Shown here: positions 15,367 to 56,724 of the stretch, in pieces
Layout of the letters: each line of letters starts with the position of its first letter
How positions within the stretch are numbered: position 1 is the first letter of the stretch
Assembly: GCA_030427805.1 (NCBI GenBank)
Contig: JAUICP010000001.1
Coordinates: forward strand, 682,001-746,000
Source of the DNA: Bdellovibrionia bacterium
GTDB taxonomy: Bacteria; Bdellovibrionota; Bdellovibrionia; Bdellovibrionales; JAGQZY01
Reading direction: 5' to 3'
Length of the DNA: 64,000 nucleotides
Made by a program: the position numbers and the translations under genes
The notes under the pieces: model-generated
Told to the model about the DNA's origin: nothing
Seen by the model: the letters and a program-made list of their open reading frames with translations, nothing else
The model's database searches: none

Positions 15367-16077
15367 CTAAGTGTCACCTGATATTTTTTGCAGAGTCTTG
15401 TTTCTACGTTTATCAAGAATGACTTGTTTGATGCTGAACTGGTCGCCGACGGCAAGGCGAGTTCCGAAAAACCCAACGGCCGCACCAAAAATGAGGTCCG
15501 AAAAAAAGTGGTTAAAAACCATGGGTCGAGTCAGAGCGATTGTAAATGAAAAAATAAATACATAGGGTGCGTACTTACGATAATAAATCCAAGTGATGGC
15601 AAAAAGACAAAAGACGACTTGCGTATGGCCGCTTGGAAAAGATTGATAGACGTGAGAGCCATTGAAGGGAACGAACGTAAATGGATCAAAAGTATCGCTA
15701 CCATAGGGGCGCATACGACCAAAGAGAAACTTCAGTAGAATGGTTAAAATTCCGCAGAAAAGGAGGGAGTAAAAGAGGTGAAGGCTCGCTCGTGAGAATT
15801 TTCGAAGCTTGCGCAACCATTTAAAATCTCCAGCCGCTACGTAGATCATAATGCCATAGCGCGTGATAATAAACGAGAAGAGTGATCCAAAAATCAGGTA
15901 ACCGGCGTCGCCCAAATCCGTAATAAAATGAATGATCTCGTAATAAGGGGGGACTCGTGGTTTTAGGAAGAGGAGGAGCCTTTGGTCAATGAATGCCATT
16001 GAAAGTAAAATCAAAGTGATGAGCCAGAGTGCCTGACCCATAAAATTTTTTGCGAGAAAAACATTTTTAAGTGACAC
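15367..16077 (-). CDS. PAP2-family membrane phosphatase
   Basis: Integral membrane phosphatase of the type-2 phosphatidic acid phosphatase family, acting on lipid phosphates or undecaprenyl diphosphate. The three family motifs are present: KFLFGRMRP, FPSGHT, and RPMVFNHFFSDL. It has five or six hydrophobic helices. The start is uncertain: the frame is open to a GTG at 16137, but that would overlap the divergent gene at 16128, so I take the GTG at 16077; ATG 16041 is also possible. No clear ribosome site helps the choice. Confidence 0.8.
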   Translation of the reverse strand: MSLKNVFLAKNFMGQALWLITLILLSMAFIDQRLLLFLKPRVPPYYEIIHFITDLGDAGYLIFGSLFSFIITRYGIMIYVAAGDFKWLRKLRKFSRASLHLFYSLLFCGILTILLKFLFGRMRPYGSDTFDPFTFVPFNGSHVYQSFPSGHTQVVFCLFAITWIYYRKYAPYVFIFSFTIALTRPMVFNHFFSDLIFGAAVGFFGTRLAVGDQFSIKQVILDKRRNKTLQKISGDT

Positions 16078-26857: not shown

Positions 26858-26873
26858 TGGCATAGGCATTGCT
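26858..26873 (+). promoter_or_regulatory. Sigma-54 promoter of flgF operon
   Basis: TGGCATAGGCATTGCT matches TGGCAC-N5-TTGCW, with the invariant GG (26859-26860) and GC (26871-26872) ten bases apart. Predicted transcription start is near 26884, about 29 bases before the flgF ATG. Confidence 0.8.
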
Positions 26874-26892
26874 CTTTAGTTCACTGAACCGG

Positions 26893-26909
26893 AAGGTCAG
26901 GAGGACCTT
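26893..26909 (+). promoter_or_regulatory. Hairpin presenting the flgF ribosome site (candidate CsrA site)
   Basis: AAGGTC (26893-26898) pairs with GACCTT (26904-26909); the loop AGGAG contains GGA and most of the ribosome binding site AGGAGG. This is the geometry of CsrA sites that block translation. Confidence 0.6.
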
Positions 26910-26912
26910 TAG

Positions 26913-27725
26913 ATGTCTGATAAGGGAATCTATACTGCAGTCAGTGGTGCAATAGCCCAAGAGAAACGCTTGGATACCATTGCTAACAACATCGCTAATG
27001 TTAATACCCCCGCCTTTAAGCGAGATGAACAGGTATTCAAAGAGTATTTAACGGCTTATGAAAAAGCCGGTGATGTTATTGAGGTGCCAAGGGTACCAGC
27101 TAGTATAGAGAGCTTCTATGCCCTCAATGGCGGCGACAAGTCTTTTGTCGATGCCCAAGGGACAACTACAAGTTTTCGTCAGGGGTCTTTAAAGACGACT
27201 CACAAGCCATTAGATTTCGCGATCGAGGGCCAAGGTCTCTTTGAGGTCGAGACTCCAAACGGAGTTCAATACACCCGAAACGGCTCATTCATGATTGATA
27301 GCCAACGGAAGCTCGTTACTAAAGAGGGGTTTCCAGTCCTTTTACAAGCGGTTTCTCCGGATCAAGAAGCGTCTACTCGGCATATTCGACTCGATGGAAA
27401 CAATGTCTCTGTGGGTGAATCGGGAAATATTATTGTCGACGGTCAGCCGGTCGGAAACCTGTCCGTTGTTAGAGTGAACAATGTGGATTCCCTGCGCAAG
27501 GCCGGTAATTCGAGGTTTGCCCTTAAAGACATTTATGGGGAAGCGCCGACTCCAGCTCAAGGTTTCAAGCTTCATCAAGGATTTTTAGAGAATTCAAACG
27601 TTAATATTATTAGAGAAATGACTGACATGATCATGGCGACAAGGGTTTTTGAAAGTACTCAAAAAGCCATTCAAGCCTATGATTCGATGAAAGATAAGGT
27701 CGTAAATGATTTACCTCGGTTTTAA
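26913..27725 (+). CDS. flgF: Flagellar basal-body rod protein FlgF-like
   Basis: Proximal rod/hook-basal family protein, 270 residues, exported by the flagellar type III system. N-terminal rod motif GAIAQEKRLDTIANNIANVNTPAFKR-type; central domain with PLDFAIEGQGLFEVETPNG and YTRNGSFMID; C-terminal helical motif (GFLENSNVNIIREMTDMI...). It precedes FlgG in the operon, the usual FlgF position; FlgG paralogy makes the exact name inferential. ATG follows AGGAGG. Confidence 0.9.
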   Translation: MSDKGIYTAVSGAIAQEKRLDTIANNIANVNTPAFKRDEQVFKEYLTAYEKAGDVIEVPRVPASIESFYALNGGDKSFVDAQGTTTSFRQGSLKTTHKPLDFAIEGQGLFEVETPNGVQYTRNGSFMIDSQRKLVTKEGFPVLLQAVSPDQEASTRHIRLDGNNVSVGESGNIIVDGQPVGNLSVVRVNNVDSLRKAGNSRFALKDIYGEAPTPAQGFKLHQGFLENSNVNIIREMTDMIMATRVFESTQKAIQAYDSMKDKVVNDLPRF

Positions 27726-31235: not shown

Positions 31236-31307
31236 CTTCGGTAGAGTTTTTATTAAAAGTGTTTTGTTATGAGACACTCGATTATAAAATAAAATTAGGG
31301 CCGTATA

Positions 31308-31452
31308 GACACACGGATGTGTCTGGCCGGGGGATGGTCGAGTTAGAGACCAAGCCAAGGATTGGCAGATTGTTTTTGCAGGAAACAGAGGCACTGGGTT
31401 CACACAAGCCATGGAATGGTAAGAACCAGCGCTGAGAAAGTACAGGATGTAC
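31308..31452 (+). promoter_or_regulatory. Leader with four GGA hairpins (candidate CsrA-binding RNA)
   Basis: Four perfect small hairpins carry GGA in the loop: GACACACGGATGTGTC (31308-31323), GCCAAGGATTGGC (31354-31366), CCATGGAATGG (31409-31419) and GTACAGGATGTAC (31440-31452). The first and last are close to the CsrA consensus RUACARGGAUGU. The third is inside a larger stem (CTGGGTTC/GAACCAG). The element is 40 bases upstream of flgJ. It may be the flgJ 5' leader or an RsmY/CsrB-like sponge RNA. Confidence 0.6.
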
Positions 31453-31491
31453 GACTAACTCACCTCCCTTTTTCTTTTTTTAAGGCAAGCC

Positions 31492-33246: not shown

Positions 33247-33265
33247 CGAAACTAGGATGGTTTCG
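33247..33265 (+). promoter_or_regulatory. Hairpin with AGGAT loop before flgK (candidate CsrA site)
   Basis: CGAAAC (33247-33252) pairs perfectly with GTTTCG (33260-33265), loop TAGGATG. Two further GGA motifs (33267-33269 and 33277-33279) lie between it and the flgK ATG, so CsrA could bridge sites over the ribosome site. Confidence 0.6.
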
Positions 33266-33279
33266 AGGATAGGTTAGGA

Positions 33280-34704
33280 ATGCCGAAGATTAACTCTTTA
33301 ATGGACATTGGAAAGCGCTCGATGATGAACAGTCAGACGGCGCTACAAACGGTGGGTCATAATATTTCCAATAAGACCACCGAGGGCTACTCCAGACAGC
33401 GAGTAGAAATCCAATCCAATCCGGCCGTCGGTGGTGGAAAAAAACGAGTGGGTACAGGTGCCCGCGTCGTCGGAGTGACTCGCACAAATAATCCCTTTTT
33501 AGAAAGACAAATTGGTAACGAACGATCGACTCAAGGTTTTCTCGATGGAAAATCAGATAGTCTGAATCGGGTTGAGCAAGTTTATAATGAACAGCTTGTC
33601 GATGGCTTAAACTCTTCGGTGAGTGATTTTTTTAATTCGTTTCGAGAACTTGCCAACAATCCAGAAAACCTTGCAACAAGACAATTGGTCGTAGAACGAT
33701 CCGATGTGATGGCTTCGGACTTTAACCGGGTTAGAAGCCAACTTAGAGATATTCAGTCTGATTTAGATCAGCAAGTGGAGCTGGCTGTGACTGAGATCAA
33801 TCAATACGCTAAAGAAATTGCAAACCTCAATGAGAAAATACAAACCGTTGAGTTAACAGGTGCCGATGCGAATGATGAAAGAGACCGAAGGGATCTTCTC
33901 ATCAAGAAATTGGGTGAGCTTGGTAATATCAAATGGGCCGAGGGTAAAGATAGTCAGGTGGCAATCACCCTGGGTAATGTCGCGGTTCTCGTTGCCGGTA
34001 GGGAGCATAGACCTATTGATTTTGCGTCCACTCCGAGGGATGGAAACAAACTCGAGGGGAACTATGATGTCATTTATCACGGAGACAACAAGAGTAATCC
34101 GACGACCATTACCAACTTTATAAAGGGTGGTAAGGCGGGTGCCATTATTGAGGTGCGGGATCAAATCGTAACAGGTTTAATAGAAGATCTCGATGAAATG
34201 GCTTACACGATTGCTGATCAGGTGAATACTCTACACCGCGCCGGTTACGACGGTAACTTTCAAAAGGGACAAAATTATTTTGATCCGATTGCTAAAGAAC
34301 AAGCTGCAGAGTTTTTAAAAATTAACGTCAATGTCCGTGAAGATGTTTCGAAAATTGCCGTCGCAGGACAGCCTGGCTCTCCTGGGGATAACCGTGTGGC
34401 CAACTTGATTTCGGACCTTCAATACAAAAAAGTAATGGCCGATGGGTCAGCGACTTTTGATGATTTTCACAATAAGACGGTGGCAAGCCTCGGTGTTATC
34501 ACACAAAGAACCCATCGCGAGCAAGAAGCGCAGGAGAACATTGTAAATCAACTGAGTAATATCCGTGAAAGTATTAGCGGTGTCAGTATCGACGAGGAGA
34601 CAACTCAGATGATTAAGTTTCAAAAGGCATTCGATGCCTCGGCTCGTCTCATTCGCGCAGCTGATGAAATGATGGATACAGTTATTAATTTGAAGAGATA
34701 TTAG
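33280..34704 (+). CDS. flgK: Flagellar hook-associated protein 1
   Basis: First hook-filament junction protein. 474 residues, on the short side. N-terminal motif SLMDIGKRSMMNSQTALQTVGHN, then NKTTEGYSRQRVEI; central NLNEKIQTVE and DERDRRDLLIKKLGELGNI; C-terminal coiled coil ending in MIKFQKAFDASARLIRAADEM-type sequence. The order flgN-flgK-flgL is the standard one. Confidence 0.96.
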   Translation: MPKINSLMDIGKRSMMNSQTALQTVGHNISNKTTEGYSRQRVEIQSNPAVGGGKKRVGTGARVVGVTRTNNPFLERQIGNERSTQGFLDGKSDSLNRVEQVYNEQLVDGLNSSVSDFFNSFRELANNPENLATRQLVVERSDVMASDFNRVRSQLRDIQSDLDQQVELAVTEINQYAKEIANLNEKIQTVELTGADANDERDRRDLLIKKLGELGNIKWAEGKDSQVAITLGNVAVLVAGREHRPIDFASTPRDGNKLEGNYDVIYHGDNKSNPTTITNFIKGGKAGAIIEVRDQIVTGLIEDLDEMAYTIADQVNTLHRAGYDGNFQKGQNYFDPIAKEQAAEFLKINVNVREDVSKIAVAGQPGSPGDNRVANLISDLQYKKVMADGSATFDDFHNKTVASLGVITQRTHREQEAQENIVNQLSNIRESISGVSIDEETTQMIKFQKAFDASARLIRAADEMMDTVINLKRY

Positions 34705-35867: not shown

Positions 35868-36134
35868 AAATTACATGCAAAAAACTTTTGATTTCTCGAT
35901 CGCTTGAATAGGGTGATGACCAAGAAAAATTGGTAATACCTTGAACCGGTTTTGCCCTATAAAACTTATCAAAAAATAGGCAGAACTAGCGTTTTACCTA
36001 TAAAAATCGCTGTTTTCTGGGGTGACTCCCTGTATCGCTTGACTTTCATCCTGTTAAATAATAGCTAATGCCCCAGCCAAAAATAGCCGATTGAGCCAAT
36101 AAGAAAGTGTTCGAAACGCTTTTGGAAACTTTGA
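35868..36134 (+). promoter_or_regulatory. Intergenic region upstream of csrA
   Basis: Contains a hairpin AGCGTTTT/AAAATCGCT (35992-36014, one bulge), a TTGACT at 36039-36044, and a GCCGATTG element at 36087-36094 resembling a sigma-28 -10 box with a poor -35. Promoter assignment for csrA is therefore open. Confidence 0.3.
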
Positions 36135-36157
36135 CTAGGACGTTGAAGGAGTCCCAG
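36135..36157 (+). promoter_or_regulatory. Hairpin over the csrA ribosome site (candidate autoregulation)
   Basis: CTAGGAC (36135-36141) pairs with GTCCCAG (36151-36157), one A/C mismatch; the 9-base loop ends in AAGGA. The csrA ATG is the next base. Csr autoregulation at this kind of site is known in other bacteria. Confidence 0.5.
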
Positions 36158-36385
36158 ATGCTGGTGCTAACAAGAAAACTAGGCGAGAGTATCGCCATAG
36201 ATGATCACATTAAGATAAGAGTCGTTCAGATTAAGGGGAAACAAGTCCGTCTTGGAATCGAGGCCCCACGAGATACGAAGATTCACAGAGAAGAAGTCTA
36301 TCTCGCTATTCAAGATCAGAACCAAGAGTCAGTTAAAACCGATTCAGAGAAGACGCGCCAAGTCGCTAAGCTCTTGAAATCATAG
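36158..36385 (+). CDS. csrA: Carbon storage regulator CsrA
   Basis: RNA-binding dimer that recognises GGA in hairpin loops and usually blocks translation. 75 residues, start [18 protein letters not shown], with the RNA-binding [19 protein letters not shown] at residues ~42-60. The frame is open to 36107, but AAGGAG and the conserved CsrA N-terminus fix the ATG at 36158. Located next to fliW and between two flagellar blocks, as in FliW-CsrA circuits. Confidence 0.97.
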
Positions 36386-36571: not shown

Positions 36572-37090
36572 ATGGTGATACAAACCACGCGTTTTGGAGC
36601 GGTGACGATTACAAAGGAAGATCTGATCAACTTTCCTGAGGGCCTTCTCGGCTTCAACGATCTTAAGTCCTTTGTCTTGCTCGATGATCCAAATGACGAA
36701 ATCTTTGCTTGGCTACAAAGCTGCGAAGAAAGCTCTATTGCCTTCCCCGTTCTAGAGCCCGAGTTATTCACGGATAAATACACCATTAAATTCAATAGAC
36801 ATGAGCTTGAAGCCCTTCAATCTGAAGACCAATCTCGTGTTCGAAGCTTTGCTATAATCACGATTCCGGAAGATCCAACGCAAATGACTGCCAACTTAAA
36901 AGCGCCCATCGTCATCAACGTCGAGAAGCGTATTGGCCGCCAGTGCGTTCTTCAGGATAACAGCCTAAATATTAGAGAGCCTATTTTCAGTAAACTCCAG
37001 CAGCGAGTTGTACAGAACCCGGGATCTCCTCTCAAGTCTCAGGTGCCTACAACTGGAATGGCGATTCGTCTTCCAGAAATGAATGGTTAA
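36572..37090 (+). CDS. fliW: Flagellar assembly factor FliW
   Basis: Binds CsrA and flagellin and so couples flagellin level to CsrA activity. 172 residues; FliW signatures FPEGLLGFNDLKSFVLLDD near residue 20, WLQSCEESSIAFPVLEP, and the late ANLKAPIVINVEKRIGRQCVL. Partner of csrA 186 bases upstream, probably with its own promoter (GCCGTTAA at 36510-36517 resembles a sigma-28 -10 box but has a weak -35). Confidence 0.95.
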   Translation: MVIQTTRFGAVTITKEDLINFPEGLLGFNDLKSFVLLDDPNDEIFAWLQSCEESSIAFPVLEPELFTDKYTIKFNRHELEALQSEDQSRVRSFAIITIPEDPTQMTANLKAPIVINVEKRIGRQCVLQDNSLNIREPIFSKLQQRVVQNPGSPLKSQVPTTGMAIRLPEMNG

Positions 37091-49859: not shown

Positions 49860-50555
49860 ATGGCTTCTGAGAATTCACCACCGGGCTACGAAGTTGTCGA
49901 TTCTGATAAAGAGTTAAATCATATCTTTGAAGTCTTTAAAGATAAGAAGCTCATCATCCATTGTTCTACTAAAACCAGTGGCCGTCATGTTTTTGAATCC
50001 CTCGCCTTTCAAACTCCATTTTTAGTTGTTAGACCGATCGATAATAGAATTCTACGCTTTGAAAATAGAGAAAAGGTAGTCGTCAATTTTGGTATTGATC
50101 AGGGTCTTTACTTTTTGCAAACGGACCTCAAGCTTCAAGGCAAGAACGAATACGCCATTAATTTTGATCAAAAAATTTATAAGATTCAAAGAAGAGATAA
50201 CTTTCGATTAACTCTTCCCGAGGATTATTCCGTTGAAGTCGAATTTGAAAAGAGTTTTATTCCCGGTTCGAATCGTTTTAAATTATCGAATTTAAGTCAG
50301 GGAGGGATGGGCGTTTCCATTCCTCAGTCAAAATCAATGTCTGTCGAGAGAGGTCGTCGCGTCGATGCCACTCTTTACCTTCCAGACCGCGATGCCTTTG
50401 CAATCCACGCCGTTATTAGACATTACCGAGATGAAGCGGAGTTTGTTCAAGTGGGATTTGAATTTGAGGCCTTGGCCCCAGAGCTAGAACAGTTGCTCGG
50501 TAACATAATGATGGATCTCTATCGCCTCATGTTTTCTCGCTACCGCGATGCTTGA
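49860..50555 (+). CDS. PilZ-domain c-di-GMP-binding protein, YcgR-like
   Basis: 231 residues: an N-terminal YcgR-like beta domain (~1-105) and a C-terminal PilZ domain with the c-di-GMP motif RRDNFR near residue 118 and LSQGGMGVS near 150. Proteins of this plan act as flagellar brakes or output modulators. Its place directly before the flagellin genes supports that. Confidence 0.85.
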   Translation: MASENSPPGYEVVDSDKELNHIFEVFKDKKLIIHCSTKTSGRHVFESLAFQTPFLVVRPIDNRILRFENREKVVVNFGIDQGLYFLQTDLKLQGKNEYAINFDQKIYKIQRRDNFRLTLPEDYSVEVEFEKSFIPGSNRFKLSNLSQGGMGVSIPQSKSMSVERGRRVDATLYLPDRDAFAIHAVIRHYRDEAEFVQVGFEFEALAPELEQLLGNIMMDLYRLMFSRYRDA

Positions 50556-50770: not shown

Positions 50771-51595
50771 GTGTCTCTACGTATTAATTCAAATGTCGCG
50801 GCCTTGACGGCTGCCAGACAGCTTAATCAAGCACAGCGTAAGGCTGAGAATGCCATGGATTCTCTGGCTACTGGCTCCCGTTTTTCGCGGGCTTCAAACG
50901 ATCCCGCAGGTCTTGCGGTAGCGCAAACTCTCAAAGCACAAATCCAGAGCAATAGGGCGGCTCAAAGAAATACAGATCAGGCGATCTCACTCATTCAAGT
51001 AGCAGAAGGCGGGCTTAACGAACAAAACAATATATTGATAAGAATGCGCGAGTTGGCAGTTCAATCTGCTAGTGACACTCTTTCTGATACGGAAAGAAAC
51101 TTCCTCGACCTTGAGTTTCAAGAACTTCTCGAAGAAATGGATCGAATTGGTAAAACGACCTCATTTGGTAATAAGAAATTACTGGTGGGTTCTGGGGAAT
51201 CTTTCGATTTTCAGGTAGGGGTTAACAAAGGCGATGAAAATGTTGTCAGGTACCAACTCAAATCTGATACGACCTCGGAAGGACTTGGTATTGATTCATT
51301 GGGGATAGCGGATCAGGATGATGCACTTGATTCTCTAGAAGAGTTGGATAGTGCCATTATTAGTACTGTAGAGGCGCGCGCCGATTTCGGGGCCATTCAA
51401 AGTCGTCTCGAATTTGCGCAAACCAATTCTGAGATTCAGGATGAAAACCTTTCGGCGGCTCGATCGCGAATTGAAGATACAGATATTGCACGAGCTACTG
51501 GAGAGTTAGTCCGGTCACAAATAGCGACTCAGGTTGCGACGGCTGTACTCGCTCAAGCCAATCAAACTCCAGAATCGGTGATTCGTTTGATCTAA
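50771..51595 (+). CDS. fliC: Flagellin 1
   Basis: Filament subunit, 274 residues, GTG start after GGGAGGG. Only the conserved D0/D1 parts: N-terminal LRINSNVAALTAARQLNQAQ, SRASNDPAGLAVAQTL and LIQVAEGGLNEQNNIL; C-terminal AARSRIEDTDIARATGELV and QVATAVLAQANQTPESVIRL. No variable D2/D3 insert. It has a sigma-28-type promoter. Confidence 0.97.
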   Translation: MSLRINSNVAALTAARQLNQAQRKAENAMDSLATGSRFSRASNDPAGLAVAQTLKAQIQSNRAAQRNTDQAISLIQVAEGGLNEQNNILIRMRELAVQSASDTLSDTERNFLDLEFQELLEEMDRIGKTTSFGNKKLLVGSGESFDFQVGVNKGDENVVRYQLKSDTTSEGLGIDSLGIADQDDALDSLEELDSAIISTVEARADFGAIQSRLEFAQTNSEIQDENLSAARSRIEDTDIARATGELVRSQIATQVATAVLAQANQTPESVIRLI

Positions 51596-51956
51596 AAATG
51601 AATCATCTGTTCTGTTAAGAAACTCTTTATCTATCAAAAAACTCAAATTTTTTTTGAATTGAGACTTGTGTTATTTCAGGCACAAGACGCGCAGTGTTAT
51701 AAAAAACCTGGACCAAGGTATTAAGTTACCTGGACCAAAGCCGAGACGAAGTCTGAACACGTTGGAAGACTCCTCCCGGAATGGTCCTTTTAACAGTCAT
51801 GGCCTTTCGGATGTGGGGAGATCAGTCAGTCACCTGATTTCCCTTCTTTGCTTCCAACACATTCGAATTTTTTTATTAACTTTTTTACGCGGTGAAAGCT
51901 TGAGGTGCTGGAGCGTAAAAACGGCGGACTTTTCCGTCTAGCTTTGGAGGCAAAAA
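51596..51956 (+). promoter_or_regulatory. Intergenic/leader region of flagellin gene 2
   Basis: Holds two direct copies of ACCTGGACCAA (51706-51716, 51728-51738), a GCCGAGAC with weak -35 (TTAA, 15 bases before) at 51740, and a strong stem GGGGAGATCAG/CTGATTTCCC (about 51815-51843). No gene. Confidence 0.4.
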
Positions 51957-52784
51957 ATGGGCTTAAGAATTAACACGAATGTTGCGTCGATCAACGCGCA
52001 ACGAAGACTCTCTTCTCAGCAAATGCGAGCTGAGAAAGCATTATCACAATTAGCATCGGGTAGTCGTATTACAAAAGCGGCAGACGATGCAGCAGGACTC
52101 GCCATTTCAGAGAACATCCGTGGGCAAACTCGAGGTCTTGCAATGGCTAGACAAAACGCATTTAATGCGATTTCTCTAGTGCAAGTGTCTGAAGGGGGAT
52201 TGAACGAAATTTCTAATATCCTTATTCGACTCAGAGAACTTGGGGTACAAGCGGCCAGTGATAACATATCAGATACCGAGCGCGCGTTCCTCAACACAGA
52301 AGCAACCCAGTTAATTGCAGAATCAGATCGTATTGCCAGAACAACTCGATTTGGTGATCAAATTCTCCTCGATGGTAGTGGAGAGCAATTGGACTTTCAT
52401 GTCGGTCCATTTGCCGGTGATGAAAACGTTATCTCATATAACGTTGATGCCGATGCGACTGCAGAGACTTTGGGGATCGATGATATCGATATCGCCGATA
52501 AAGATGGAGCGAAAGAAACATTGGGTGCGGTCGATGATGCACTCGTGATGCTCGGTGAGCTTCGTGCTGACTTCGGTGCGGTTCAAAGTCGATTGCAAAC
52601 GACCACTGCGAATTTAGATATTCAATATGAAAACTTAAGTGCTGCGAAATCAAGAATTAAGGATGCCGACGTTGCCCTAGCAACTTCAGAGTTGGCCTCT
52701 GCGAATATTCTTCAGCAAGCAGCTGTTTCAGTGTTAGCACAAGCTAATAACTTCCCATCATCTTCTTTGAGACTTCTGGCTTAG
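51957..52784 (+). CDS. fliC: Flagellin 2
   Basis: 275-residue D0/D1-only flagellin with LRINTNVASINAQRRLSSQQ, ITKAADDAAGLAISENIRGQ, QVSEGGLNEISNILIRL, SAAKSRIKDADVALATSEL and terminal SSSLRLLA. Ribosome site TGGAGG. Followed by a terminator-like hairpin (52861-52884). Confidence 0.97.
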   Translation: MGLRINTNVASINAQRRLSSQQMRAEKALSQLASGSRITKAADDAAGLAISENIRGQTRGLAMARQNAFNAISLVQVSEGGLNEISNILIRLRELGVQAASDNISDTERAFLNTEATQLIAESDRIARTTRFGDQILLDGSGEQLDFHVGPFAGDENVISYNVDADATAETLGIDDIDIADKDGAKETLGAVDDALVMLGELRADFGAVQSRLQTTTANLDIQYENLSAAKSRIKDADVALATSELASANILQQAAVSVLAQANNFPSSSLRLLA

Positions 52785-52860
52785 GTCATCAAGAAGGCTT
52801 TGGGGTACTTATACAAAAAAAGATTTGAGTAGTCGCCCACAGAAACTACTCTTAAGCCCG

Positions 52861-52892
52861 CCTTGGGGAATCCGTTCCCCAAGGTATATTTT
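52861..52892 (+). terminator. Terminator after flagellin 2
   Basis: CCTTGGGGAA (52861-52870) pairs perfectly with TTCCCCAAGG (52875-52884) around TCCG, followed by TATATTTT. Confidence 0.8.
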
Positions 52893-53079
52893 GGGCCTAA
52901 TAGGGCATTCCATTTCAAAATTCAGGTTTCAGAAAGCGTTACTTCACTTTTAAGCCTGGTTCCAGCGGCCATTCGAGAACGTATAATAATTGGACATATC
53001 TAATATTTAGACGTTGAAACCGTTTTAATTTTCAATACAGCTCCATTTTTCTGGCGTCGACTTTGCTCGTATATAGAGT

Positions 53080-53487
53080 ATGAATTGGTTTTTCGGATGG
53101 ATTACCTTTATTTTAAGGCTCCTACATCGAAATGCTCCAGTGAAGAGAAGGTTAGAGTCGGATTTTGCTAGTATGGATGATACTCAAAGAGAGATGGCCG
53201 AAGGTGGGTCAGGCCTCTTGTTGTGGATCCTAGTTATAATCGGACCGCTCGGATGGGGTAGTTTTTTTCTCGGTGATAAAAATTTAAATCTCGATCGCAA
53301 AGCTGCAAAAGCTTTTCTGGAGATGTTTGTTCCCGAGAAGGAAGTCGCTTCGAACCGTCTAAAGATTTACGATATTTCTTCTAAAGCCCCAGAGGTCAAA
53401 ACTCTCCCTACTTATTACTACGAAGGCAGTAGTAATTCTAAAAATCTGCTGGACCCAAAAGACAAAAAAAGCTCGACTCGACAATGA
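53080..53487 (+). CDS. Small membrane protein between flagellin genes
   Basis: 135 residues. One hydrophobic helix at ~45-65 (GLLLWILVIIGPLGWGSFFLG); an amphipathic, basic N-terminus; polar C-terminus. The ribosome site is weak (TAGAG). Coding use looks ordinary and the frame is uninterrupted, but no family was recognised. It sits between flagellin genes 2 and 3. Confidence 0.5.
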   Translation: MNWFFGWITFILRLLHRNAPVKRRLESDFASMDDTQREMAEGGSGLLLWILVIIGPLGWGSFFLGDKNLNLDRKAAKAFLEMFVPEKEVASNRLKIYDISSKAPEVKTLPTYYYEGSSNSKNLLDPKDKKSSTRQ

Positions 53488-53865
53488 GTGGGGCAAACTA
53501 TCTTTAGTCGGGTCTTGAAATCTGTAACTTGATACTTGTCTAGTCAATTAACCCTATCTTAGTAGTGTTTTCTTTACCAAAGTCTAGTTTCAACATGACG
53601 AAGGTCCAGTTTGCCTGGACGAGACTTCAGGCTGCCCAGACCTCGCCGAAAGGGGAGTTGTCAGTTGCAAAACACTAGACTGCTTATCCCAAAGTTCCTG
53701 GACCTTGAGTGACTGCTTGGTGCAGAAATTGAGCTTCGAAGTGATTTGTATTTGATACCAACGTGTTCAACCAAAGGGCGACAGTGATGTCGCCTCCTTG
53801 GCCCAAACTAAATAGGTCTAGTGGCTAAGGGTAAGAGGGATTTTGCAAATTAAAGGAGCAAACTC
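53488..53865 (+). promoter_or_regulatory. Leader of flagellin gene 3 with several hairpins
   Basis: Perfect hairpins: GTCCAG/CTGGAC (53604-53620), GGCGACA/TGTCGCC with GTGA tetraloop (53777-53794, flanked by CCAA/TTGG), and TTTGC/GCAAA (53842-53862), whose loop holds the ribosome site AAAGGA. A TCCTGGACC copy is at 53697-53704. No good promoter was identified. Confidence 0.5.
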
Positions 53866-54699
53866 ATGGGTTTGAGAATAGCAACTAATATTACTTCTCT
53901 AAACGCGCAAAATACTTTGGCGAGAAGTACAAGAAACATTGAAAAAAGTATGGCTCAGTTAGCCTCGGGAAGTCGTATCACAAAAGCGGCCGACGATGCA
54001 GCGGGCTTATCAATTTCAGAAAACTTTAAAAGCCAAATTCGTTCACTCAAGCAAGCAAATAGAAACGCTAGTGATGGTATTTCACTCGTTCAGGTTGCTG
54101 AAGGTGGTCTTAACGAAATTTCAAATATCGTAACTCGATTGAGAGAATTGGCTATTCAGGCATCTTCTGACACGATTTCGGATGTTGAGCGAGGCTTCGT
54201 AAACAAAGAAGTTCAACAACTCGTCAACGAATCAGAGAGAATTGCTTTATCTACTACTTTTGGAAAAACACAACTCCTCGATGGATCAGCTGGTACTTTT
54301 GACTTCCAAGTTGGTGCACTTAATGATGACTTCAACGATCGAATTTCATTTGACGCTGCCGAAAACGTAGCGACAACTTCTGAATTGGGGATCGATAGTC
54401 TCGACTTCAGCGAAAAGGGAAGTGCCCAAGAAGCACTTGAGACACTTGATAATGCTCAAACCACGGTTTCTAGCTACAGAGCGAACTTAGGTGCCCTTCA
54501 AAACAGGCTCATCTCTACAACTGATAACTTAGGTATTCAGGTAGAAAACCTTTCGGCTGCGAACTCTCGAATTAGAGATACGGATGTAGCAGATGCGACT
54601 TCGAATATGGTTAAATCAAATATTCTTCTTCAAGCATCTACTGCCACGTTATCGCAAGCGAATCAGATTCCACAAAACGCTCTTAGATTACTTGGCTAA
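53866..54699 (+). CDS. fliC: Flagellin 3
   Basis: 277 residues with LRIATNITSLNAQNTLARST, SRITKAADDAAGLSISENFK, LVQVAEGGLNEISNIVTRL, LSAANSRIRDTDVADATSNM and terminal QNALRLLG. D0/D1-only. Its leader is the longest and most structured of the three. Confidence 0.97.
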   Translation: MGLRIATNITSLNAQNTLARSTRNIEKSMAQLASGSRITKAADDAAGLSISENFKSQIRSLKQANRNASDGISLVQVAEGGLNEISNIVTRLRELAIQASSDTISDVERGFVNKEVQQLVNESERIALSTTFGKTQLLDGSAGTFDFQVGALNDDFNDRISFDAAENVATTSELGIDSLDFSEKGSAQEALETLDNAQTTVSSYRANLGALQNRLISTTDNLGIQVENLSAANSRIRDTDVADATSNMVKSNILLQASTATLSQANQIPQNALRLLG

Positions 54700-55224: not shown

Positions 55225-55338
55225 AAGAAATTTCCCAGCACAGTGTCTAAATCCAAGGTCCAAGCCATATTATTGACTCACGCTTAGAGGGCAAAGTCTG
55301 AGAAACTAAGGTATGCGGAAGTGTGTCAGGAGGACCCT

Positions 55339-56724
55339 TTGCCAGCAATTACTTTTGGAGGAATGGCTTCTGGATTGCCCCCAAATATTGTGGAGACAAT
55401 CTTAGATGCAGAACGAATTCCGATAAATACGATTAATGCCAGGAAGGCGAAAACTGAGAATAAGCTCAAGCTTGTTCAAGATCTCGAATCAAAAGTCTCC
55501 GGTATCAGAGGTTCACTCGGTGAGCTCGCGAGCACCCGTGGTTTCCAAGATATGAAACTCATATCTGGTGATCCGAATATCATCGATGGTGTTGTTGACC
55601 CAGAACTGTCGAAAGCAGGTAGCTGGAACGTAGAAGTTGTAAGTCTTGCGCAAAAGGCCGCGGCTCTAACCAATGGTTTTCCAGATAAAGATCGTACAGA
55701 AATTGGGATTGGTTACTTTAAATTTGATACTCCAGACGGCAGTAAAGACGTTTACATCGATGGCTCATCAAACACTTTGGAAGGGGCGGCCAACGCCATA
55801 AATAGAGCAAACCTTGGCGTGCGAGCTTCTATTATTCAAGATAGCGAAGATCCAGATAATCCCTACAAACTTCTTCTTTCGGGCGAGACTGTTGGTAATG
55901 ACAGTAAAATCAATTATCCGACACTTTACTTCTTGGATGGCGATCAAGATATGTATTTTGATGGCGCTCGAGAGGCAAAAAATGGAATTGTTAAAGTTGA
56001 TGGTTTTGAAATCGAAATTGACTCAAACAAACTGGAAGGATTGATCCCGGGAGTGACCTTGGACCTTAAGCAAGCGGCACCTGGCAGGCAAGTTAATGTC
56101 ACGGTCAAAGAGGATTTGGAGCTCGTTGTTGGCAAGGTCGAAGAGTTTGTTAAGTCGATGAATGAGGTCCTAGGCTTTATTCAGCAACAAAACGCGATGG
56201 ACCAAAATACAGATACCACATCGACTTTAGGTGGTGATTCTCTTTTAAGAACTGTAGAGAGTCGTATGCGATCTCTAATCCTTACCCCACAGTCCGGAAT
56301 TTCAGGTCCTATAAAGAGACTTAACCAGATAGGTATAGAATTTAACCGCCAAGGTACATTACAATTTAATAAGGACAAATTTAATAAAACCGTAGCCTCG
56401 ATGCCTCAAGAAGTCAGCCAATTGTTTGCTGGAGACGGTTTTACCAAGGGAGTTATTCCCTCTGTTAGAAGAGTCGTTGGTGATTTACTCAACTCTGCAT
56501 TTGGCCCCATATCTAACAGGAAGCGCGGACTCGAGCAAAAGATTCGCAGAGCGGATCAGAGAATTGAAAGTAAAGAGCGTCAGCTCGTAAGAAAAGAGCA
56601 AAATTTGCGCATGAAGTTTGGGAGATTAGAAGAAACAATCTCGCGATTGAAATCACAGGGTGCTGCTCTTGGACAATTAGGTGGAGGCGGAGGTTTACTG
56701 TCCTCTCTCCAGGCTAGCAGTTAA
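55339..56724 (+). CDS. fliD: Flagellar filament cap protein
   Basis: Filament cap, 461 residues from the TTG at 55339, which has AGGAGG upstream; the GTG at 55321 would lie before that site. N-terminal ITFGGMASGLPPNIVETILDAER; FliD_C-type ending with GVIPSVRRVVGDLL, then a coiled coil (RIESKERQLVRKEQNLRMKF) and Gly-rich end. The leader shares the 12-mer GTCAGGAGGACC with flgF. Confidence 0.94.
   Translation: MPAITFGGMASGLPPNIVETILDAERIPINTINARKAKTENKLKLVQDLESKVSGIRGSLGELASTRGFQDMKLISGDPNIIDGVVDPELSKAGSWNVEVVSLAQKAAALTNGFPDKDRTEIGIGYFKFDTPDGSKDVYIDGSSNTLEGAANAINRANLGVRASIIQDSEDPDNPYKLLLSGETVGNDSKINYPTLYFLDGDQDMYFDGAREAKNGIVKVDGFEIEIDSNKLEGLIPGVTLDLKQAAPGRQVNVTVKEDLELVVGKVEEFVKSMNEVLGFIQQQNAMDQNTDTTSTLGGDSLLRTVESRMRSLILTPQSGISGPIKRLNQIGIEFNRQGTLQFNKDKFNKTVASMPQEVSQLFAGDGFTKGVIPSVRRVVGDLLNSAFGPISNRKRGLEQKIRRADQRIESKERQLVRKEQNLRMKFGRLEETISRLKSQGAALGQLGGGGGLLSSLQASS

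Follow-up and report, generated by a model that had tools for sequence, protein, structure and literature searches.

A conserved RNA with GGA hairpins between flgI and flgJ, homologous to APsRNA1 of Bdellovibrio bacteriovorus HD100, is a probable CsrA-sequestering RNA in the flagellar region of Bdellovibrionales

CsrA-sequestering RNAs have been described principally in Gammaproteobacteria (PMC13407953). The consensus selected by CsrA in SELEX is RUACARGGAUGU, with the GGA mostly in a hexaloop, and the gammaproteobacterial Csr RNAs are anti-correlated with FliW; according to the same review of 2020, joint action of FliW and an sRNA on CsrA remains to be determined in any species (PMC7652899). 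In B. bacteriovorus HD100, the RNA APsRNA1 (499,375-499,581, + strand, 207 nt; Table 2 of PMC3627812) reaches 50,451 RPKM in attack phase and 3,181 RPKM in growth phase, a 16-fold difference, with no FliA promoter noted, and the published description goes no further than an attack-phase RNA with no function assigned (PMC3627812). No other paper naming APsRNA1 was found, in a search that left most subscription journals and preprints outside its scope, so that earlier work may have been missed.

The window, i.e. the whole stretch of DNA analysed here, comprises 64,000 nucleotides of a Bdellovibrionia bacterium (contig JAUICP010000001.1, positions 682,001 to 746,000). The RNA described below was found through a scan of the window for perfect hairpins with a GGA loop, which besides the flgF hairpin returned 31307-31324 and 33247-33265. 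The first of these lies in the 256-nt gap between flgI and flgJ, about 4 kb downstream of flgF; this gap contains a T-run and six GGA motifs, each within or at a hairpin, and in relatives it contains an RNA that can be aligned with that of the window. The RNA is about 187 nt long, its start having been inferred from TATAAA at 31283-31288 and its end from the T-run. In its layout a 5' hairpin (H1) is followed by a long closing helix that encloses H2, H3, H4 and H5, with the T-run after the 3' arm:

31295-31481 (approximate), + strand: predicted noncoding RNA, homologue of HD100 APsRNA1; covariance model match at 31301-31473, 105 bits
31306-31325, + strand: hairpin H1, GACAC-ACGGAT-GTGTC; loop GGA in 52 of 54 relatives
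31329-31346, + strand: 5' arm of the closing helix, GGGGGATGGTCGAGTTAG; from alignment and covariation
31354-31366, + strand: hairpin H2, GCCAAGGATTGGC; loop GGA in 53 of 54
31372-31386, + strand: hairpin H3, GTTTTTGCAGGAAAC; GGA at the loop-stem junction
31408-31420, + strand: hairpin H4, GCCATGGAATGGT; loop GGA in 43 of 54
31440-31452, + strand: hairpin H5, GTACAGGATGTAC; near the CsrA SELEX consensus, loop GGA in 52 of 54
31454-31481, + strand: 3' arm of the closing helix and T-run (terminator); the published end of APsRNA1 lies in the matching T-run

The predicted structure is supported by covariation. RNAalifold supplied the structure for a MAFFT alignment of 26 sequences, in which 89.6% of the cells were paired, against 81.4% in shuffled and about 44% in slid controls, and 103 cells were compensated, against 38.9 and 11-28, respectively. 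When 54 distinct sequences were fitted to the covariance model, 90% of the cells were paired and 232 were compensated (67 shuffled, 31-63 slid), although this alignment (A3) leans toward its own model. Related genomes are not independent, and the E-values of the model are rough. The stem of H5 covaries, occurring as GTACA, GTGCA, GCGCA and GCACA.

The model matched 109 of the 141 genomes of the order (85 of the 103 good ones) and also three genomes from a different family in the class. The RNA is single-copy per genome, save for one weak extra match in one genome, and lies directly downstream of flgI wherever the position of flgI is known; no match was found in relatives without a flgI match. 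In a Pseudobdellovibrio-like genus it is degenerate or missing, with csrA and flgI still present. A candidate second copy in the window's own genome, a single match of 15 bits (E 0.12), was disregarded, and a weak match elsewhere in the phylum (genome G326), off the contig that carries flgI in that genome, was treated as chance. No Rfam family, the Csr/Rsm covariance models included, matched the RNA even at E up to 10. It is an unclassified small RNA shared by the predatory Bdellovibrio group, of which the conservation, the structure and the GGA sites are newly described here.

In HD100 (genome G031, taken as this strain because the published merRNA interval contains a c-di-GMP-I riboswitch), the model match covers 499,379-499,583 on the + strand. 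APsRNA1 and the homologue of the window RNA therein share locus and strand, with ends within a few bases of each other, and the published end of APsRNA1 falls inside the T-run. An independent transcript with a terminator is documented for HD100 by published data, namely its own mapped start and its T-run end; for the species of the window it is predicted.

Several conserved parts of the RNA resemble CsrA sites. In 54 sequences the loops of H1, H2, H4 and H5 preserve the motif A(N)GGA in 52, 53, 43 and 52 cases, respectively, while the stems change, and even the diverged members L033, L038 and L085, with different stem sequences, retain GGA hairpins. H1 (ACACAUGGAUGUGU in most relatives) and H5 (GUACAGGAUGUAC in the window) fit the SELEX consensus closely. 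There are on average 3.5 GGA hairpins per RNA against 0.65 in shuffled sequences, and 0 to 2 in the other seven attack-phase RNAs of HD100. The gene for the presumed partner, csrA, is present in all 103 good genomes of the order. With four to five GGA sites in conserved loops, the RNA has the make-up of a CsrA-sequestering sRNA. Like CsrB/CsrC and RsmX/Y/Z of Gammaproteobacteria, it is a small noncoding RNA that presents GGA in several hairpin loops and ends in an intrinsic-type terminator; it differs from them in lacking sequence or model similarity, in its long closing helix and in its position between flgI and flgJ, and E. coli CsrB has more GGA sites. Unlike the gammaproteobacterial Csr RNAs, which are anti-correlated with FliW (PMC7652899), it occurs together with FliW.

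Since the RNA lies just upstream of flgJ, with the T-run directly before the start codon in several species, it might be regarded as a cis-acting leader or attenuator of flgJ instead of a trans-acting sponge. We consider this unlikely, given that the HD100 RNA starts at a mapped site of its own, ends in the T-run and accumulates as a 207-nt transcript at 50,451 RPKM, and that flgJ is found hundreds of bases further on in other species. CsrA could act on the flgI-flgJ RNA also in cis. Slightly more improbable still is a structural RNA with some other partner, such as a housekeeping RNA or a diverged 6S RNA. CsrA alone does not explain the invariant GCAGG at H3 or the G-rich closing arm; their conservation exceeds the needs of CsrA binding and counts against a CsrA sponge, as do the number of GGA sites, lower than in E. 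coli CsrB, the lack of a match to CsrB/Rsm models and the genus in which the RNA is degenerate or missing beside csrA and flgI. Against such another partner stand the lack of any Rfam match, the absence of the RNA from relatives without flgI, which is not the behaviour of a housekeeping RNA, and the loops that keep GGA while the stems vary. An identity with 6S RNA was rejected, as RF00013 did not match and the genome has its 6S RNA elsewhere, at C1:864429-864600. In our judgement the RNA is likely to be a CsrA antagonist.

The genes for CsrA and FliW follow downstream, together with two leaders that carry candidate CsrA sites:

33247-33265, + strand: flgK leader hairpin, CGAAAC-TAGGATG-GTTTCG; 73% of the flgK leaders in relatives have a GGA hairpin with 5 or more pairs
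33280-34704, + strand: flgK; Pfam FlgK_D1
36129-36149 (approximate ends), + strand: csrA leader hairpin, CTTTGAC-TAGGAC-GTTGAAG; conserved in most genera read
36158-36385, + strand: csrA, the sole copy in the genome; genome search
36572-37090, + strand: fliW; Pfam FliW, 3.4e-39

Across its RNA-binding fold, CsrA of the window can be aligned with RsmE and CsrA proteins whose structures are known; it has a C-terminal extension and N55, features linked to FliW binding (role of the residue: PMC13407953). The gene fliW, found in 95 of the 103 good genomes of the order, adjoins csrA; in one relative (G094, C88:8126-8485) fliW was read through one TAG stop. The adjacency of csrA and fliW in a flagellar region is shared, along with the C-terminal extension and N55 of CsrA, with the CsrA-FliW-flagellin switch of Bacillus subtilis and Campylobacter jejuni, from which this locus is distinguished by the conserved leader sites at csrA and flgK and by a dedicated RNA. 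Unlike hag and flaA of other FliW bacteria, the three flagellin leaders of the window (50771-54699) have no strong GGA hairpin.

Leaders of orthologues were scored from -55 to +20 for GGA hairpins of at least 5 Watson-Crick pairs, with the starts chosen by rule. Such hairpins were present in 79% of the csrA, 73% of the flgK and 13% of the flgF leaders, against a background of 4% drawn from part of one genome (400-476 kb); for fliW (3%) and flgL (0%) no conserved GGA hairpin was found in the leaders of relatives. From these rates it follows that the conserved CsrA-type targets are flgK and csrA, not flgF. The csrA leader hairpin, CTTTGAC-NAGGAY-GTTGAAG, adjoins the ribosome site in most genera read; as its stem hardly varies, covariation gives no support to this hairpin. 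The flgK leaders have an upstream hairpin with unrelated stems and a similar GGA loop, and often AGACA-GGA-TGTCT across the start codon; for this last stem the covariation with codon 2 is weak (p about 0.02-0.03 per pair, without correction). Both leaders are reminiscent of the two-site targets typified by E. coli glgC, with a GGA hairpin upstream and another GGA located at the ribosome site or at the start codon; unlike in glgC, these sites are predicted from sequence, and flgF has one site only.

The flgF leader itself was the subject of the first-pass annotation, in which the ribosome site was placed in the loop of a 6-bp hairpin and the gene in a sigma-54-driven operon under possible block by CsrA:

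26858-26873, + strand: flgF sigma-54 promoter, TGGCAT-N5-TTGCT; from sequence, predicted start near 26884
26893-26909, + strand: flgF ribosome-site hairpin, AAGGTC-AGGAG-GACCTT; from sequence and fold, in the genus and several genera of one family, not order-wide
26913-27725, + strand: flgF; Pfam rod/hook domains

The hairpin and its coordinates proved correct, with AAGGTC at 26893-26898, the loop AGGAG at 26899-26903, GACCTT at 26904-26909 and the ATG at 26913. The sigma-54 element is also found upstream of flgF in nearly all relatives read. As this site predicts a start near 26884, the flgF leader is about 29 nt long. The 17-mer alone folds with a minimum free energy of -6.1 kcal/mol, and the minimum free energy structure of the predicted leader (26884-26912) is the same hairpin, at -8.5 kcal/mol. 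The sequence GTCGAG recurs near flgF sigma-54 promoters (e.g. L038, L050, L053) and is possibly an activator site.

In 476 kb of the own genome, 239 genes were counted whose ribosome-site position carries GGA. In five of them (2.1%), flgF included, the GGA is enclosed by a stem of 6 or more Watson-Crick pairs. Such a stem is unusual for one gene, yet dozens of such genes are expected in the 4.5-Mb genome. The longest stem in the sampled background, 9 pairs around an AGGA ribosome site, belongs to a gene start near 15635 (+) at L125.

When flgF leaders of relatives were compared, as had been proposed, the hairpin was seen to be identical within the genus (L052, L151) and to recur with compensated stems (CGTC-AGGAG-GACG, GGTC-AGGAG-GACC, TCGTC-AGGAG-GACGA, GTCC-AGGAG-GGAC and CGTGA-GGAG-TCACG) in the closest family, where seven genomes from three genera have it; the family's other genera, like most of the order, do not. 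Conservation across the order was rejected, only 13% of 38 flgF leaders having a GGA hairpin of at least 5 pairs. A ribosome site that fell by chance into a small stem, without a dedicated regulator, has close to an even chance of being the explanation, the roughly 2% of genes with such a stem and the absence of one from most flgF leaders of the order being in its favour. It does not readily account for the identity within the genus, for the compensated stems in three genera, or for recurring loops that are always AGGAG or GGAG directly before the ATG. Repression of flgF by CsrA, as suggested at the outset, is consistent with the single csrA of the genome, with a loop of the CsrA-type AGGA whose GGA overlaps the ribosome site, as in CsrA targets, and with the retention of the hairpin in the genus and its compensated stems elsewhere; the narrow conservation of the hairpin speaks against it. 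From the leader sequence such control is plausible, if tentative and somewhat short of even chances. The hairpin, itself confined to its lineage, probably belongs to a larger group of CsrA-type sites with GGA in the loop in this flagellar region.

It had also been noted that the 12-mer GTCAGGAGGACC recurs before fliD with a 3-bp stem, and both statements hold: there are exactly two occurrences, at 26896 and 55325, and two matches with at most one mismatch arose in 2 of 100 shuffles. The 3-bp stem is absent from the minimum free energy fold of 55310-55370, and the fliD 12-mer was rejected as a second hairpin site because it has no supporting stem.

The hub of these CsrA-type sites is likely to be the conserved flgI-flgJ RNA of about 187-207 nt, with its four to five GGA hairpins and predicted sequestration of CsrA. 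What we infer for this RNA is CsrA binding, sequestration and an effect on targets, as follows. CsrA would repress translation of csrA itself, of flgK and, in some genera, of flgF. The RNA, abundant in the attack phase of B. bacteriovorus, would titrate CsrA off the csrA and flgK leaders and so permit their translation, and in a few genera titration would also free flgF. FliW would be a second antagonist of CsrA in the same cells. On balance, we slightly favour an order-wide CsrA sponge, unrelated in sequence to CsrB/Rsm, that is located in the flagellar cluster, operates alongside FliW and, through its abundance in attack phase, couples flagellar assembly to the predatory switch. The flgI-flgJ RNA would thus be a place for testing joint action of FliW and an sRNA on CsrA; the reading provides a hypothesis of function for a decade-old Bdellovibrio attack-phase RNA and suggests a post-transcriptional layer in the switch between hunting and growth.

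In HD100 the RNA's promoter is overlapped by an inverted repeat, TGTYTC-N4-TGARACA (also written TGTTTC-N4-TGANACA), at 499339-499355 (L067:7340-7356), and a weaker form is present upstream of the window RNA, near 31259-31276. The repeat, which differs from the element of RNAs controlled by BarA-UvrY/GacS-GacA, may be the operator of some regulator. Genome-wide it is enriched over the reversed pattern, with counts of 31/28 against 6/8 in HD100 (G031) and 48/48 against 18/16 in genome G000.
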